Shown here: positions 44,133 to 51,372 of the stretch, piece after piece
Position numbering within the stretch: position 1 is the stretch's first letter
Layout: each line of letters starts with the position of its first letter
Source: Janthinobacterium sp. UMAB-56
GTDB lineage: Bacteria > Pseudomonadota > Gammaproteobacteria > Burkholderiales > Burkholderiaceae_D
Assembly: GCF_900095265.1 (NCBI RefSeq)
Contig: NZ_LT607655.1
Location: 154,914 to 218,913, forward strand
DNA: 64,000 nt
Direction of reading: 5' to 3'
The notes under the pieces: model-generated
What the model saw: the letters and a program-made list of their open reading frames with translations, nothing else
Databases searched by the model: none
Told to the model about the DNA's origin: nothing
Program-made: the position numbers and the translations under genes

Positions 44133-45713
44133 TCACTTTTCAGGATAGCCGGTGATATCGGCGATTTCGCGGTACAGCGGCTGCAACCGCGCATACATTT
44201 TCTGGTACACACGCCGGTATAGCTGTTCGTAGATTTTACTGTGCTCGGGGTGCGGCTGGAATACCTTGCCCTTGCGCGTCATCGCTTGCACGGCGGCGGG
44301 GAAATCGGCATGCCAGCCCAGGCCCACGGCGACGGCGATGGCCGCGCCCAGGCCCGAACTTTCATACACGTGGGCGCGCGCGGCGGGCAAGCCGAAGATG
44401 TCCGCCGTCAGTTGCATGGCCGCGTCGCTTTGCGAACCGCCGCCCGCGATGCGCAACTCCGTGATGGCGATGCCGCTGCGCCGCTCGATGCGTTCCTTGC
44501 CTTCGCGCAGCGCATACGCGAGGCCTTCAAGGATGGCGCGGTAGATGTGCGCGCGTGTGTGCACGTCGCCAAAACCGATCATGGCGCCCTTCGCTTCCGG
44601 GCCAGGCACCTTGATGCCGGGACTCCAGTACGGCTGCAGCATCAAGCCCATGGACCCGGGCGGCACGGCTTCGACCAGGCGGTCGAACAGCGCCTCGGCA
44701 GACAAGCCCGTGCCATCTTCGGCGGCCGCCGCCCGTTCGCGGTCGCCGAACTGCTCCTTGAACCAGTTGACCATCCAGTAGCCGCGAAATATCTGCACTT
44801 CCGTACTGTAGGCGCCCGGCATGGCGGCCGGATACGGCGGAATGAAGCGCGTCACTTCCACATACTTGCGATTGGTCGTATTGATGGTGGCCGTAGTACC
44901 GTAGCTCAGGCAGGCCACATGCGGCTCGACGCAGCCGGCGCCCAGCACCTCACACGCCTTGTCGGCGGCGGCCGCCAGCAGCGGCGTGCCTTCCAGGATG
45001 CCCGTCGCCGCAGCGGCCGCCCTGGTGATGGCGCCCATGCGCGTGCCCGGGGCCACCAGCTCGGGCAGCATGGAGCGTTGAATCGCCAGCGCCTGCCATT
45101 TCCAGTCGAAGCGCCCGGCCCAGGCATGGCGCTTGTAGTCGAACGGAATGTACGCCACTTGCGACCCCGTCGAATCAATATACTTTCCGCACAGGCGGTG
45201 GTTCAAAAAACCCGACAGCAGCAGGAATTTGTGCGTGCGCCGCCAGATGTCGGGCTGGTGCGCCGCGATCCAGTTGATCTCGGCCTCGCGGCGGAAATAC
45301 GCGATCGTGCCATCGAGGCGCGTGGTGCGGAAGGCGGCGCGCCACCATAGCGCCAGCGGTGGAATGTCGCGCGTGCTGCGCTGGTCCAGCCAGGTGATGG
45401 CAGGGCGCAAGGGTACGCCGTGTTCATCCACGTTGACCACCGTGCCGCGCTGCGTCGTCACCGCCACGCCCATGACCGACGATTTTTCAATGACGGTGCC
45501 GCGCCACAGTTGCTGGCACGCTTCGCACACGGCTTGCCAGTAGCCGTCGGCGTCGTGCTCGGCCCAGCCGGGGTGCTCCGAGTAATACGCTTCCAGGAAC
45601 ACCTGCGCCTTGGCCGCCAGATTGCCGTCCCGGTCGAACAGCAGCGCGCGCACGCTCTGCGTGCCATTATCGATGGCAAGGATATACGGGCCATCGCCCG
45701 CCAGGGAAGCCAT
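44133..45713 (-). CDS. FGGY-family carbohydrate kinase
   Basis: A 526-residue sugar or polyol kinase of the FGGY family. The N-terminal phosphate motif is ILAIDNGTQSVRALLFDRDG, followed by GVAVTTQRGTVVNVDE and ITWLDQRS; the C-terminal half has the adenosine motif ELRIAGGGSQSDAAMQLTADI. It is the last gene of an operon with a GlpD-like dehydrogenase and an AGPS-like flavoprotein, so the substrate may be a glycerol derivative. It starts four bases after the stop of the small gene at 45717-46034. Confidence 0.88.
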   Translation of the reverse strand: MASLAGDGPYILAIDNGTQSVRALLFDRDGNLAAKAQVFLEAYYSEHPGWAEHDADGYWQAVCEACQQLWRGTVIEKSSVMGVAVTTQRGTVVNVDEHGVPLRPAITWLDQRSTRDIPPLALWWRAAFRTTRLDGTIAYFRREAEINWIAAHQPDIWRRTHKFLLLSGFLNHRLCGKYIDSTGSQVAYIPFDYKRHAWAGRFDWKWQALAIQRSMLPELVAPGTRMGAITRAAAAATGILEGTPLLAAAADKACEVLGAGCVEPHVACLSYGTTATINTTNRKYVEVTRFIPPYPAAMPGAYSTEVQIFRGYWMVNWFKEQFGDRERAAAAEDGTGLSAEALFDRLVEAVPPGSMGLMLQPYWSPGIKVPGPEAKGAMIGFGDVHTRAHIYRAILEGLAYALREGKERIERRSGIAITELRIAGGGSQSDAAMQLTADIFGLPAARAHVYESSGLGAAIAVAVGLGWHADFPAAVQAMTRKGKVFQPHPEHSKIYEQLYRRVYQKMYARLQPLYREIADITGYPEK

Positions 45714-45716
45714 GGC

Positions 45717-46034
45717 TTATGCCACGCTGGCCAGCGCGGCGCGCAGCGCTTGCAGCAGCGCCTGCGGGTCCTTGTCCGGCTGCGCGCTGAACACCGGCGC
45801 CTCCCAGTCCTGTCCCCGCACTGCCACCACGCGCAAGCGTCCCCGCGCATGCCAGGCCGGATACCAGCCCACGTCGACGATGTCGCCATTCGCGCAGGTA
45901 ATTTGCAGCAGGTCTTCGCCCAGGTCGTCGAGCAGGACGTCAACGCTCTGGCGCAAGTCCAGCGGCGACAGGCTGTCGTAGGTGATGCGGGCGTCGCCCA
46001 GCGCCAGGGGCTGGCCAAACAGGATGGTCTCGAT
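45717..46034 (-). CDS. Small conserved-context protein, apparent ATC start
   Basis: An open frame of 105 codons between the dehydrogenase and the kinase. It reads well throughout (ETILFGQPLALGDARITYDS, LDLRQSVDVLLDDLGEDLLQ, ANGDIVDVGWYPAWHARGRL, LRVVAVRGQDWEAPVFS, a C-terminal Ala/Leu helix) and is bounded upstream by a stop codon. There is no ATG, GTG or TTG before 45956, but AAGGAG ends six bases before the ATC codon at 46034, where translation would give fMet-Glu-Thr-Ile. A TTG start at 45956 would leave 79 residues and lacks a ribosome-binding site. No family recognised. Confidence 0.6.
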   Translation of the reverse strand: METILFGQPLALGDARITYDSLSPLDLRQSVDVLLDDLGEDLLQITCANGDIVDVGWYPAWHARGRLRVVAVRGQDWEAPVFSAQPDKDPQALLQALRAALASVA

Positions 46035-46078
46035 GATGCTCTCCTTGTGCTCTTTTTATCGTTGTTTTTCTCGTTGCT

Positions 46079-47659
46079 TCAGCCGCCCTGCGGCACGCTG
46101 TAATGGCGGCGCCACAGAATCAGGTAGCGCTGCTGTTCTTCGTCCCAGCGCGCATCGTTCCAGCCCAATTCAGACTGGCAGATGGCGCGCAGGCGCGGCA
46201 TGATAGCAAGCGCGCCGCCGGCCAGTTGCAGACCGAGGCGCGTGCGCCGCAGCAGCAAGTCGTCCAGGTGCTGCACGTCTTCCCTGCGCGCACCCCAGCG
46301 CAGCTGCGCCCACAGGGTCTGCGTGCCGGGAATCGGCTCCAGTTCGCCGTCCTGCGCCGCCTCGCACAGCGCTTGCGCGGCCGCGCCATGACGCCCCAGC
46401 AGGCGTTCGCGCTGCTCGCTATCGAGCAGCAAGGCCTTGCCCGACAAGGGCGGCGTGGCGTCGAAAATCGGCAAGGGGCGCAAATCCGCCTGCCAGCCCG
46501 GCAGCAGCGGCGCGGCGCGGCGCAGGGCGTCGAGGGCGATCACGCGAAACGTCGTCAATTTGCCGCCGGCTACCGTCAGCAAGCCGTTTTCCAGCCATAG
46601 CGCATGTTCGCGCGCTTCCTTCGACGGGTCAAGCTGGCCGCTGCCGATCACCGGGCGCACGCCGGCAAACGTGGCCAGCACATCGTTCTCGCCCAGCGCC
46701 AGTTGCGGGAACTGCCAGCGCAGCGCCGCCAGCAGATAATCGAATTCGCCGCGCGTGATGGCCGGTTCCAGGTCCAGGCTGGCGCCGTGGTCGACATCGG
46801 TGGTGCCGACCAGGGTCACGCCCTCCCACGGATACGCAAACACGGGGCGGCCATCGTGCGGGTGCATCAGGCTGACGGCTTGCGCCAGCGGCAAACGCCA
46901 GGCGGGCAGCAGCAGATGGCTGCCACGCAGGGGCCGCAGTTTCGGCTTTTCGCCCACCTGGCCGCGCAAGGCGTCGGCCCAGGCGCCCGTGGCGCTGATC
47001 ACCAGGCGCGCGCGCACCGCAGGCTTCGCGTCCCCGAGGCCATCGTTCAACACGGCGCCCACGACTTTGCCATCGTCGCGCAGCAGCGATGCCACGCCCA
47101 GGTAATTGACGGCCACGCCGCCATGGCGGCGCGCCTCCTGCAGCACGCGCAGCACCAGGCGCGCATCATCCGTCTTCGCGTCCTGGTACAACATGCCGCC
47201 CTGCAGGCCCTCGCGACGGAGGTGTGGCGCCAGCATGGCAAAGTCCGCCGCATCGACATAGCGTCGCGCGCGCCGGCCCGCCATCACGTCATAGATGGCC
47301 AGGCCCAGCATGAACTGGCGCCGGCCAGGTTTTCTGCCGCTGTAGTCGCCAAAGGCGAAGCCCTGCGGCTCGACCAGCCCGGCCGCATCCGCCAGCAAGG
47401 CTTGCCGCTCATGCACCGACTCGCGCGTCAGCGCAAACTGCCCCTGCTTCAGGTAGCGCAGGCCGCCGTGCACCAGTTTCGAGGAACGGCTCGACGTACC
47501 CCAGGCGAAATCGCGCTGCTCCACCAGCAGCGCCGTCAAGCCGCGCCGCGATGCTTCCAGCAAGATGCCGGCGCCCGTGATGCCGCCGCCGACGATCAGC
47601 ACATCCCAGTCGCGCGCGAGGATGCCGGGCAAATCCTCCCTGCGCTGCGCTGCATTCAC
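46079..47659 (-). CDS. GlpD-like FAD-dependent glycerol-3-phosphate dehydrogenase, GTG start
   Basis: A 526-residue flavoprotein of the aerobic glycerol-3-phosphate dehydrogenase family. It has the FAD dinucleotide motif DVLIVGGGITGAGILLEAS, the GlpD signature TSSRSSKLVHGGLRYLKQGQ, GTTDVDHG and a C-terminal FAD contact in VAGGKLTTFR. These enzymes oxidise sn-glycerol-3-phosphate to DHAP and pass electrons to quinones. The GTG start at 47659 overlaps the TGA stop of the upstream flavoprotein gene (GTGA), so the two are translationally coupled. Because it sits with an AGPS-like enzyme, the real substrate could be an alkyl-glycerol-phosphate. Confidence 0.87.
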   Translation of the reverse strand: MNAAQRREDLPGILARDWDVLIVGGGITGAGILLEASRRGLTALLVEQRDFAWGTSSRSSKLVHGGLRYLKQGQFALTRESVHERQALLADAAGLVEPQGFAFGDYSGRKPGRRQFMLGLAIYDVMAGRRARRYVDAADFAMLAPHLRREGLQGGMLYQDAKTDDARLVLRVLQEARRHGGVAVNYLGVASLLRDDGKVVGAVLNDGLGDAKPAVRARLVISATGAWADALRGQVGEKPKLRPLRGSHLLLPAWRLPLAQAVSLMHPHDGRPVFAYPWEGVTLVGTTDVDHGASLDLEPAITRGEFDYLLAALRWQFPQLALGENDVLATFAGVRPVIGSGQLDPSKEAREHALWLENGLLTVAGGKLTTFRVIALDALRRAAPLLPGWQADLRPLPIFDATPPLSGKALLLDSEQRERLLGRHGAAAQALCEAAQDGELEPIPGTQTLWAQLRWGARREDVQHLDDLLLRRTRLGLQLAGGALAIMPRLRAICQSELGWNDARWDEEQQRYLILWRRHYSVPQGG

Positions 47660-49266
47660 AATCCGCCCCCGGCCTCGGGCAGCAGTTTGCCGGGATTCAT
47701 CATGCCCTGCGGGTCGAAATGGCGCAGCAGCGCGCGCATGGCGGCGATGCCCAGTTCCCCTTTTTCGACCGCCAGCCACGGCGCGTGGTCGGTGCCCACG
47801 CCATGCTGGTGGCTGATGGTGCCGCCGTTGGCGACGATGGCGGCGCTGGCCGCGTCTTTCAAAGTGCGCCAGCGTGCCATGTTTTCTTCATACGTGGGCG
47901 CCAGCCGGTAGACATACGTGGTGTAGACGCTGGCGCCCTGCGCGTACACGTGCGACAGGTGCGTGTACGCGTGCACCTGCTCGCCGTGCTGCGCCAGCGC
48001 TTTGGTGCCCGCCTGCTCCAGCGCCGCCATCATGGGCGTCACGCGGGGCCAGTCGACGGCCGTTTCCACCGTGTCGATGACATAGCCATGCTCCCAGGCG
48101 CCGTTGCGCAGGTAGACGTTGCGAAAGCGCCCCTGCTTCCACTTGTCGCCCATGTGCCGCCCCACATGCACGCCTTTGTGCCGCCGCGCCAGCGCCAGCG
48201 CGCCGCGCAGGGCCGCGCGCGCCGGTTTCGCATCGCCGCTGACGCCCACCATCAGCATGCACTTGCCTTCGCCGCAGCCGCGCAGGGCCAGGTAGCGCTG
48301 CAGCAGTCCCACCAGTTTTTTGTGCCCGGCCAGGGTCAGCATGGTTTGCGTTTCCAGCGCATTCGACAGGCGCAGCATGCACAGGGGCAGGCGCGACTGG
48401 GCCAGCGCCCGCACGGCAGCTTGCGCCTGGCCCCAGTCGGCGAAAAACACGGCGTGGAATGCTTCATGGGGCGGCAGCGGCGAGACGCGCACGGTGGCCT
48501 GCGTCAAAATGCCCAGCCGCCCTTCGGAGCCGAGCACCATTTCACGCAGGTCGATGCCGGCCGCCGAGGCGGGAAAAGTGGGGATGCTCAAGGTGCCGGC
48601 CGGCGTTTCGACTTCGCCGCCCGCGAACAGCTGCTCGATGCGGCCATAGCGCAACGATTGCTGGCCCGACGAGCGCGTGGCGATCCAGCCGCCCAGCGTC
48701 GAATATTCGAACGACTGCGGATAGTGGCCCAGGGTGTAGCCATGCGCGCGCAGCTGCGCTTCCAGGTCGGGACCATACACGCCTGCGCCGAACGTGGCCA
48801 GCTGCGCTTCGCGGTCCAGGTGGCCCAGCGCGCACAGGCGCACGAGGCTCAGCGCCAGCACGGGGCGCGGCCCCGCCGCCACCGTCAGGTGCCCGGCCAC
48901 GCTGGTGCCGCCACCGTGCGGTATCACGGCCACGCACGCCTGGCGCGCATACGCGAGCAGCTGGCGCACCTGCAGCACGCTGTCGGGAAAGGCCACGCCA
49001 TCGGGCACGGCACCAAGGCGGCCATGGCGCAGCTTGAACCAGTCGGGCAGGCTTTGACCGAGGGCATGGCGCACGCGCGTGGCAGGCCGGGTGTCGATCA
49101 GCGGATGCGGCGCCAGGCGCGAAACGGGCACCCGCGCGCAGGCGTCGTCGAAAGTGGCATCGAGCACGGGGCTGCCCGGCCCCAGGCGCTGGCCCAGAAA
49201 GGCCAGCGCGTCCTCGCCCAGCGCATACGTGATGCTCTCGTCTCCCCAGCCATTCCAGCGTTGCAT
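47656..49266 (-). CDS. FAD-binding oxidase, alkyl-DHAP-synthase (AGPS)-like
   Basis: A 536-residue flavoprotein of the vanillyl-alcohol-oxidase/AGPS family. The N-terminus MQRWNGWGDESITY matches the KWNGWG opening of alkylglycerone-phosphate synthase. The FAD-binding part includes PHGGGTSVAGHLT and PQSFEYSTLGGWIATRSSGQ. The C-terminal SHQHGVGTDHAPW matches the SHHHGVG catalytic loop of AGPS, and NPGKLLPEA closes the fold. AGPS exchanges an acyl for an alkyl group on DHAP. The second ATG (49266) has GAGGGGG at a good distance; ATG 49272 is too close. First gene of the operon. Confidence 0.85.
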   Translation of the reverse strand: MQRWNGWGDESITYALGEDALAFLGQRLGPGSPVLDATFDDACARVPVSRLAPHPLIDTRPATRVRHALGQSLPDWFKLRHGRLGAVPDGVAFPDSVLQVRQLLAYARQACVAVIPHGGGTSVAGHLTVAAGPRPVLALSLVRLCALGHLDREAQLATFGAGVYGPDLEAQLRAHGYTLGHYPQSFEYSTLGGWIATRSSGQQSLRYGRIEQLFAGGEVETPAGTLSIPTFPASAAGIDLREMVLGSEGRLGILTQATVRVSPLPPHEAFHAVFFADWGQAQAAVRALAQSRLPLCMLRLSNALETQTMLTLAGHKKLVGLLQRYLALRGCGEGKCMLMVGVSGDAKPARAALRGALALARRHKGVHVGRHMGDKWKQGRFRNVYLRNGAWEHGYVIDTVETAVDWPRVTPMMAALEQAGTKALAQHGEQVHAYTHLSHVYAQGASVYTTYVYRLAPTYEENMARWRTLKDAASAAIVANGGTISHQHGVGTDHAPWLAVEKGELGIAAMRALLRHFDPQGMMNPGKLLPEAGGGL

Positions 49267-49420
49267 CGACATCCCCCTCTTATTGGTCCAGCTGATTGCA
49301 CCAGTTGCGCGCCACGGCGGCTTGCTATACTGTCCTTGCCTGATTTTCTTGCCAGATCAATAGCATATGCCGCCACACACGAAGGGTATTGGTTTTTCAT
49401 GACAATCGCATTGTTCCATC

Positions 49421-50497: not shown

Positions 50498-50589
50498 GCG
50501 TGCGCGGGCCATGCCTGGCGCATTTTCTGGCTATACTGGCATAGTCTGACTTCCCACGATCACTCCAACCCGCAATGCAAAGGATTAAT

Positions 50590-51372
50590 ATGCAACTCAA
50601 AGACAAAGTCGCACTGATTACCGGCGCCGCCAGTGGCATCGGCAAGGAAATGGCTATTGAATACGCGAAACAGGGCGCCAAGGTGGTCATCGCCGACCTG
50701 GCCCTGGAAGCGGCCAGCAAGACGGCCGAAGAAATCAAGCAATCGGGTGGCCAGGCGTTTGCCGTCGCCATGGATGTCTCCAGCGAAGCGCAAGTCGACC
50801 AGGGCGTGGCGGATGCCGTGGCCCACTTCGGCGGCATCGATATCCTGATCAGCAACGCGGGCATCCAGATCATCAGCCCCGTCGTCGACTACCCGTTCGA
50901 TCAATGGAAAAAGATGCTGGCCATCCACATGGACGGCGCCTTCCTCACCACGCGCGCCTGCATGCGCGAAATGATCAAGGCCGGTCGCGGCGGCGCCATC
51001 ATCTACATGGGTTCCGTGCACTCGCACGAAGGTTCGCCGTTCAAGAGCGCCTACGTCGCCGCCAAGCACGGCTTGCTGGGCCTGGCCAAAGTGGTGGCCA
51101 AGGAAGGCGCAAAAGATGGCATCCGCGCCAACGTCATCTGCCCCGGCTTTGTACGCACGCCGCTGGTCGACAAGCAAATCCCCGAACAGGCGGCCCAGCT
51201 GAACATCAGCGAAGAAGACGTGATCAAGAAAGTGATGCTGAAAGACACCATCGACGGCGAATTCACCACCACGCAGGACGTGGCGCAAACAGCCATCTTC
51301 CTCGCAGCGTTCCCATCGAACGCCCTGAGCGGACAATCCATCGTGGTGAGCCACGGCTGGCACATGCAATAA
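50590..51372 (+). CDS. 3-hydroxybutyrate dehydrogenase (SDR family)
   Basis: A 260-residue short-chain dehydrogenase that should interconvert 3-hydroxybutyrate and acetoacetate with NAD. The Rossmann motif is [12 protein letters not shown], followed by NAGIQ, the catalytic Ser in MGSVHSHEG, Tyr and Lys in SAYVAAKHG, and [15 protein letters not shown], which is typical of hydroxybutyrate dehydrogenases. Start ATG 50590, preceded by AAAGGA. It follows the AraC gene on the same strand. A role in PHB or ketone use is likely; a link to the ether-lipid operon is speculation. Confidence 0.85.

Follow-up and report, generated by a model that had tools for sequence, protein, structure and literature searches.

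An operon for an AGPS-like flavoprotein, a GlpD-like dehydrogenase and an FGGY kinase in Janthinobacterium sp. UMAB-56 and other bacteria, with a possible role in ether-lipid catabolism

The window analysed here, a stretch of 64,000 nucleotides of contig NZ_LT607655.1 of Janthinobacterium sp. UMAB-56 (source genome 6.1 Mb, 82 contigs), contains a putative operon with genes for a flavoprotein similar to the ether-lipid enzyme AGPS, a dehydrogenase similar to GlpD and a kinase of the FGGY family, next to a divergent gene for a regulator of the AraC type. The locus consists of the following features:

47656-49272, minus strand: AGPS-like flavin adenine dinucleotide (FAD) protein, 538 amino acids from the ATG at 49272 or 536 amino acids from the ATG at 49266
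46079-47659, minus strand: GlpD-like FAD dehydrogenase, GTG start at 47659, with PF01266 and PF16901
45717 to about 46034, minus strand: small open reading frame (ORF) of about 105 amino acids between the GlpD-like and kinase genes
44133-45713, minus strand: FGGY kinase, with PF00370 and PF02782
49421-50497, plus strand: divergent AraC-type regulator, with Arabinose_bd and HTH_18
49273-49420, no strand: intergenic region, presumed to hold the divergent promoters

The gene order proposed in the first-pass annotation (AGPS-like gene, GlpD-like gene with a GTGA overlap, small protein, FGGY kinase, divergent AraC gene) was confirmed from the sequence, the GTGA at 47659-47656 combining the GTG start of the GlpD-like gene with the overlapping TGA stop of the AGPS-like gene. 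The ATG at 49266 is the likelier start of the AGPS-like protein, since the consensus of 38 aligned relatives opens at MRRWNGWG. The closest relatives of this protein are other Janthinobacterium flavoproteins, with at most 94 % identity.

The best matches of the flavoprotein in the PDB were AGPS enzymes (Dictyostelium ADPS, E 1.2e-71; guinea pig, E 2.6e-55), and glycolate oxidase matched at 2.3e-20. Its structure, predicted with 38 aligned sequences, had a mean pLDDT of 85.8 and a pTM of 0.86. When this model was compared with known structures using Foldseek, rows 1 to 37 were all AGPS structures (TM by query length 0.74-0.90), followed in rows 38 to 50 by lactate dehydrogenases and a putative dehydrogenase (TM 0.65-0.71). 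The NCBIfam GlcD model, from the same superfamily, gave 116.2 bits with a cut-off of 567.9. Numbered from 49272, residues R301, R389, Y450, H488 and H490 align with R419, R515, Y578, H615 and H617 of guinea pig AGPS, and Q489 takes the position of H616, giving HQH instead of the His-His-His triad at 615-617. PDB titles name R419H and Y578F as AGPS mutants; we take R515 to be a substrate residue of AGPS and residues 615-617 to act as its His triad. An identity as lactate or glycolate oxidase was rejected, fold, best sequence match and catalytic residues all being of the AGPS type, and the clustering with such oxidases that would have counted against the first-pass annotation was not seen.

Related loci were collected in a first scan, which found 228 relatives and from which the best 80 loci were kept, and in later searches of 398 genomes of Pseudomonadota, 251 of Chloroflexota and 140 of Myxococcota (limit 1e-40) and 148 of Desulfobacterota and 249 of Bacillota (limit 1e-60). 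AGPS homologues were classed as operon type when their identity to the window protein was about 46 % or higher. A match of at least 46 % was present in 16 of the Pseudomonadota genomes, 20 of the Chloroflexota, 3 of the Myxococcota and 5 each of the Desulfobacterota and Bacillota, each count including the window's own or the seed genome. The 80 loci of the first scan and 35 from the later searches, with one duplicate removed, made up 115 operon-type loci; neighbourhoods were read for most operon-type matches of the later searches (in Chloroflexota for 14 of the 20 genomes, plus that of locus L045), and the phylum given for these loci is that of the search that yielded them. A further 82 AGPS homologues, a chosen part of those listed in the later searches, served for comparison as one pool, as their groups B, G and N had been sorted partly by neighbours.

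Both a GlpD and an FGGY gene were found near 87 of the 115 operon-type AGPS genes, GlpD alone near 18, FGGY alone near 4 and neither near 6, and where at least 3.8 kb of downstream sequence was available both were present in 86 of 101 loci. One locus (L062) was counted only through an unrelated FGGY gene on the opposite strand, so that the real figures are 86/115 and 85/101. Near the 82 other homologues both partners occurred 7 times, GlpD alone 10 times, FGGY alone twice and neither 63 times. By phylum, both partners accompanied the operon-type gene in 58 of 63 loci of Pseudomonadota, 6 of 8 of Bacillota, 3 of 3 of Acidobacteriota, 3 of 4 of Myxococcota and 4 of 4 of Desulfobacterota, in the one locus of an unassigned bacterium, and in 0 of 2 loci of Thermodesulfobacteriota, both of which are on short contigs. 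The AGPS-GlpD-FGGY operon recurs in six phyla. A linkage limited to close relatives was rejected by these neighbourhood counts of 115 loci; the check across genomes that had been proposed with the first-pass annotation found AGPS conserved together with GlpD and FGGY far outside them.

The residues were compared in an alignment of 198 bacterial homologues (116 operon-type and the 82 others) and both eukaryote references. R419 was present in all 198 homologues, Y578 in 197 (the other having a gap) and H617 in all 197 with a letter at that position, while R515 was found in 116/116 operon-type proteins and in 178/198 overall. Position 616 was Gln in 113 of the 115 operon-type proteins with a letter there, whereas it was His in all 82 others and in both eukaryote references. 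The WNGWG motif occurred in 109 of the 116 operon-type proteins, compared with 10 of the 82 others.

In a tree of 98 of 201 AGPS sequences, built by a quick method without bootstrap, the operon AGPSs formed one side of one branch (41/41 rows, SH-aLRT 100), and guinea pig AGPS grouped with a Myxococcota protein (L263) apart from them. A second AGPS clade (16 rows; 29-33 % identity to the window protein) includes seven loci (L177, L197, L231, L232, L238, L248, L252) with an FGGY kinase of the operon subfamily. In four loci (L247, L248, L251, L253) a relative of type 2 glycerol-3-phosphate (G3P) oxidase and GlpA lies within the AGPS gene run, that of L247 scoring 213 bits, below the cut-off. In Myxococcota L209 and L213 (and L211) the AGPS, of 42-43 % identity, adjoins a GlpD-like gene of 38-40 % identity, and no FGGY kinase was found; this arrangement is possibly an intermediate form of the operon. 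A separate large clade of bacterial AGPSs (24 tree rows; the N group, e.g. L180, L182, L203, L220, L266) has no GlpD or FGGY gene nearby, and the motif THHHAVG is common in the N group. No FAR or GNPAT domain was present in 15 scanned neighbours, out of many, beside AGPSs of other clades, and a synthetic clade among these could therefore not be picked out.

The GlpD-like protein matched a solved G3P dehydrogenase with E 1.2e-79 and, aligned to 2qcu, keeps R54, Y55, R317, R332 and K354 of E. coli GlpD, which we take to be the residues for G3P. Its best score against the curated GlpD equivalog was 261.7 bits with a cut-off of 360. The best NCBIfam model of the kinase was XylB (248.4 bits, under the cut-off of 380.25), and the GlpK cut-offs were not reached either. 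In E. coli numbering of glycerol kinase, R83, E84, Y135, D245 and Q246 are presumably the glycerol-binding residues, E84 and Q246 contacting glycerol. R83, W103 and D245 were kept in all 96 operon kinases, including that of the window, whereas Glu was found at the E84 position in none of the 96 (Gly in 62, the window kinase among them, Ser in 12, Ala in 11, others in 11), Lys replaced Q246 in all 96, again including the window, and the F270 position was Thr in 94. The loss of E84 and Q246 would fit a substituted glycerol as substrate, though it proves none.

A tree of 50 of 103 kinases, made by the same kind of quick method without bootstrap, placed the operon kinases of both AGPS lineages together in a single clade of 44 rows (SH-aLRT 100) that excludes glycerol kinases and LsrK. 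Within it the kinases of the second lineage scatter to several places, and the association of one kinase type with two AGPS lineages speaks for a shared pathway. Elsewhere the source genome encodes two further GlpDs and two FGGY kinases that carry NQRETT, the motif of glycerol kinases; ordinary glycerol use should therefore not need the operon, and a housekeeping glycerol operon was rejected as its identity.

The regulators differ between phyla. An AraC-type gene was present in 47 of 63 loci of Pseudomonadota, counted anywhere within the examined locus, while outside Pseudomonadota 21 of 52 loci had a FadR-like gene of the GntR family, all of one cluster. All 25 members of this cluster matched NCBIfam FadR models; those of L045, L050 and L167 scored 217.4, 215.3 and 212.8 bits, above the cut-off of one FadR model (189) and below that of the other (249.2), and the regulator of L045 matched FadR structures of the E. 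coli type with E 9e-50. Three of the 25 (L232, L238, L242), which belong to the other AGPS lineage, have 22-28 % identity to that of L045. FadR of E. coli binds acyl-CoA, and a FadR-like regulator therefore points to a fatty chain. For the AraC regulator of the window the best NCBIfam model was GliR (190.6 bits, cut-off 570), with QhpR almost equal (181.2 bits).

GliR (PA3027) was described with the P. aeruginosa genes PA3026-PA3024 by Kotecka et al. (2021; PMC8151288), who tentatively drew the pathway from glycerol to alkylglycerone phosphate. The first-pass annotation knew of no bacterial operon described this way, and here it is corrected, an operon of this kind being in print, with a proposed synthetic direction. 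The whole cluster is reported there from four genomes and a similar one from eight others.

Other genes beside the operon were surveyed among 58 of 62 co-directional neighbours (four L158 genes were left out, two of which were scanned separately), and the results listed cover 25 of 64 families, including all that occurred twice or more. Response regulator, CheW, DUF362, DAGK/YegS, glyoxalase and GMC oxidoreductase families occurred in two or three neighbours, and as pointers to the substrate the neighbours yielded little. A GMC oxidase gene directly follows the kinase in two loci (L076:13787-15388, L088:13531-15135); the proteins, whose closest model is that of a cholesterol oxidase (566-567 bits against a cut-off of 850), are possibly lipid-alcohol oxidases. 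Four AGPS loci of different lineages have a YegS/diacylglycerol-kinase-like gene close by (L159:3067-3987, L162:11807-12700, L200:5581-6441, L240:9790-10740), comparable to PA3023 in P. aeruginosa. In some Desulfobacterota operons a DUF362 gene (PF04015) adjoins the AGPS or FGGY gene (L238:5468-6802, L228:11392-12702; its cluster, C22, covers four loci) and perhaps serves in electron transfer.

The operon may be a catabolic counterpart of the eukaryotic ether-lipid pathway, a reading to which we give an even chance and for which we infer the substrate, the order of the steps, the direction of the AGPS reaction and the nucleophile. AGPS normally works through a flavin-N5 adduct, by which a fatty alcohol takes the place of the acyl group of acyl-dihydroxyacetone phosphate (acyl-DHAP). 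In the proposed route the FGGY kinase would phosphorylate the free primary hydroxyl of a 1-O-alkylglycerol to give 1-O-alkyl-glycerol-3-phosphate, and the GlpD-like flavoprotein would oxidise this at C2 to alkyl-DHAP, passing on the electrons to what, from GlpD, is expected to be quinone. On the AGPS-like flavoprotein the C1-O bond would break and the alkoxide would leave as the FAD-N5/DHAP adduct forms, and the adduct would be resolved by water (or a carboxylate) in place of the fatty alcohol, yielding DHAP and a fatty alcohol which could be oxidised towards acyl-CoA. Oxidation at C2 makes a DHAP conjugate, which is useful only if AGPS acts later and in the breaking direction, and this favours the order kinase, C2 oxidation, C1-O cleavage. 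Oxidation of the GlpD type also fits degradation because ether-lipid synthesis has a reductase at this point, alkyl-DHAP reductase acting after AGPS (PMC9131029).

The observed support for the catabolic reading consists of the gene identities, the conserved linkage and catalytic residues, the H616Q signature, the separate kinase clade and the FadR-like gene in other phyla. The shared kinase subfamily of the second AGPS lineage, the separate glycerol kinases and GlpDs of the source genome and the GMC oxidases of L076 and L088 add to it. In P. aeruginosa an excess of GliR raised expression not only of the operon but also of phospholipase C PA3464 and lipid kinase PA3023 (PMC8151288), which we also count for catabolism. 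The catabolic scheme of the first-pass annotation has thus gained the AGPS-type identity, the wide linkage and, through the FadR-like regulators, a sign of a fatty chain, and its alkylglycerol substrate and reverse AGPS reaction we still infer. The wider proposal, that glycerol 1-O-alkyl ethers are commonly cleaved without oxygen, in aerobes and anaerobes, by phosphorylation, oxidation at C2 and elimination of the alkoxide by a repurposed AGPS marked by HQH, is more tentative, and we would put it somewhat below an even chance.

Several results weigh against catabolism of alkylglycerols. Neither activity nor growth is known for any member, and the P. aeruginosa deletion of PA3026-PA3024 was without phenotype, whether on glycerol, on citrate or on nine BIOLOG plates (PMC8151288). 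The abundance of PA3026, lower on octadecane than on hexadecane (PMC5491041), is neutral with regard to the reading. The window's own regulator is of the AraC and not the FadR type, 31 of the 52 loci outside Pseudomonadota show no FadR-like gene, and the published GliR motifs A and B were not found beyond chance in the window's promoter region, where the best sites had three mismatches each, a level reached in 58 % and 91 % of 500 shuffles, respectively. Glycerol-kinase Tyr135 has no sure place in the alignment of the 96 operon kinases, and no transporter or lipase family recurred beside the operon among the neighbours scanned. In Chloroflexota both partners were present in only 12 of 30 loci, L062 among the 12. 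In a selection of ten Chloroflexota genomes with operon-type AGPS, six of them taken for the lack of a kinase nearby and four as not yet examined for one, nine had no kinase of the operon type anywhere in the available sequence (best FGGY 29-33 % identity, or none); the kinase is therefore dispensable there, and GlpD and AGPS look like the core in those Chloroflexota.

The same genes can be read in other ways. Since all that the AGPS mechanism requires is that a DHAP conjugate carry a leaving group at C1, the enzyme could be a general one for such conjugates and the same three steps could serve a different 1-substituent. This could be an acyl ester, from remnants of monoacylglycerol or lysophospholipid, an ether of the aryl or isoprenoid type, or the glycerol conjugate of a natural product. 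The mixed residues at the E84 position of the 96 kinases suggest room not tuned to one substituent, and the YegS/diacylglycerol-kinase-like genes near four AGPS loci agree with this. Esters, however, are opened by ordinary lipases without such a route, and the FadR-like regulator suggests a fatty chain, although acyl fits it as well as alkyl; on balance we consider another substituent rather unlikely. Synthesis would mean that the kinase and the GlpD-like enzyme supply DHAP from glycerol, that an acyltransferase encoded elsewhere turns it into acyl-DHAP and that AGPS then forms the alkyl-DHAP needed for ether lipids. In eukaryotes AGPS does make alkyl-DHAP, the GliR authors drew this direction (PMC8151288), and MXAN_1676 contributes to ether-lipid formation in M. 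xanthus, if in a minor way (PMC9131029). Against synthesis, the kinase differs from glycerol kinase at E84 and Q246, the genome has the other glycerol kinases and GlpDs noted above, C2 is handled by an enzyme of the oxidising GlpD type and not by a reductase, the operon AGPSs stand apart from the branch of guinea pig AGPS, and neither acyltransferases nor acyl-CoA reductases recurred as a family among the neighbours scanned; we regard synthesis as improbable.

A pathway free of lipids, in which the flavoprotein is a redox enzyme resembling GlcD or D-lactate dehydrogenase and serves polyol or hydroxyacid catabolism with a kinase for a sugar or polyol, would draw on the shared superfamily seen in the GlcD score and on XylB as the kinase's best model, below its cut-off. 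The conserved AGPS catalytic residues, the fold closer to AGPS than to lactate dehydrogenases, the FadR-like regulator and the residues, presumably for G3P, that the GlpD-like enzyme keeps make it very unlikely.

The small ORF had no Pfam or NCBIfam match and, among the best 80 of the 228 relatives' loci, was confined to Janthinobacterium. No ATG, GTG or TTG lies behind its Shine-Dalgarno (SD) site in the window. The SD (AAGGAG/GAGGAG) is kept in the window and in 14 of 14 other aligned Janthinobacterium loci (L009-L021, L068), with no ATG, and is followed by AGC (AGT in L018), ATC (ATT in L010) and ATC; L018 has lost most of its copy. Protein similarity extends upstream of the first TTG, the codon-position test being weak (10, 6 and 13 changes at positions 1, 2 and 3), and translation may start at the conserved AUC/AUU codon. 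After the AraC gene lies a gene for 3-hydroxybutyrate dehydrogenase (50575-51372, plus strand; above the NCBIfam cut-off), of which a 94-100 % identical copy is found in the same place in 14 Janthinobacterium loci and no match in the examined flanks of other Oxalobacteraceae loci.

The gene types are known and the operon type is not new, having been described in part before; of the readings considered, catabolism of ether lipids is the best, with chances for and against it roughly balanced. In open-licence literature, with most subscription journals outside it, no paper with a catabolic reading of the operon was found, nor a published pathway for bacterial, above all anaerobic, cleavage of the alkyl ethers of glycerol lipids. 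If the reading is true, a non-redox flavin reaction that is known to form ether bonds would break them as well, and surveys that count AGPS homologues as ether-lipid producers may partly count degraders. A Black Sea study (PMC11868695) read the capacity to make ether lipids from AGPS homologues, defined by E <1e-30 and at least 30 % identity to the AGPS of M. xanthus. With L263, the tree row nearest guinea pig AGPS, as proxy, at least 30 % identity was reached by 29 of the 116 operon-type AGPSs, and to guinea pig AGPS itself by 25, so that the operon type could be partly counted in such surveys; the support from this test is mixed. The HQH signature offers a simple means of separating the operon type.

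Of the systems known, PA3026-PA3024 with GliR is similar, by its published description, in the order of flavoprotein, GlpD-like and FGGY kinase genes and in the divergent AraC regulator. It differs in being a three-gene operon followed by the YegS-type PA3023, whereas Janthinobacterium has the small ORF between the GlpD-like and kinase genes; its published reading runs towards alkylglycerone phosphate, opposite to that argued here, and the spread found here is far wider than the published dozen genomes. The Janthinobacterium regulator, moreover, is far under the cut-off of the GliR model. Eukaryotic peroxisomal AGPS/ADPS (4bby, 2uuu) shares with the window protein the fold, WNGWG, R419, R515, Y578, H615 and H617, but the two differ in overall sequence (28 % identity to guinea pig AGPS), in the change of H616 to Gln, and in their partners, FAR1 and GNPAT in eukaryotes and a kinase and a C2 dehydrogenase in the operon. 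M. xanthus MXAN_1676-MXAN_1674 is likewise a three-gene operon with a bacterial AGPS homologue, as described in PMC9131029, but there the partners are FAR1/GNPAT-like and epimerase/dehydratase-like proteins and the role, though minor, is synthetic. Mammalian AGMO/TMEM195 cleaves the alkyl ether bond of alkylglycerols, as the proposed route would; according to the same source it is an O2-dependent monooxygenase that yields a fatty aldehyde, whereas the route proposed here would cleave the bond without O2 and yield a fatty alcohol.

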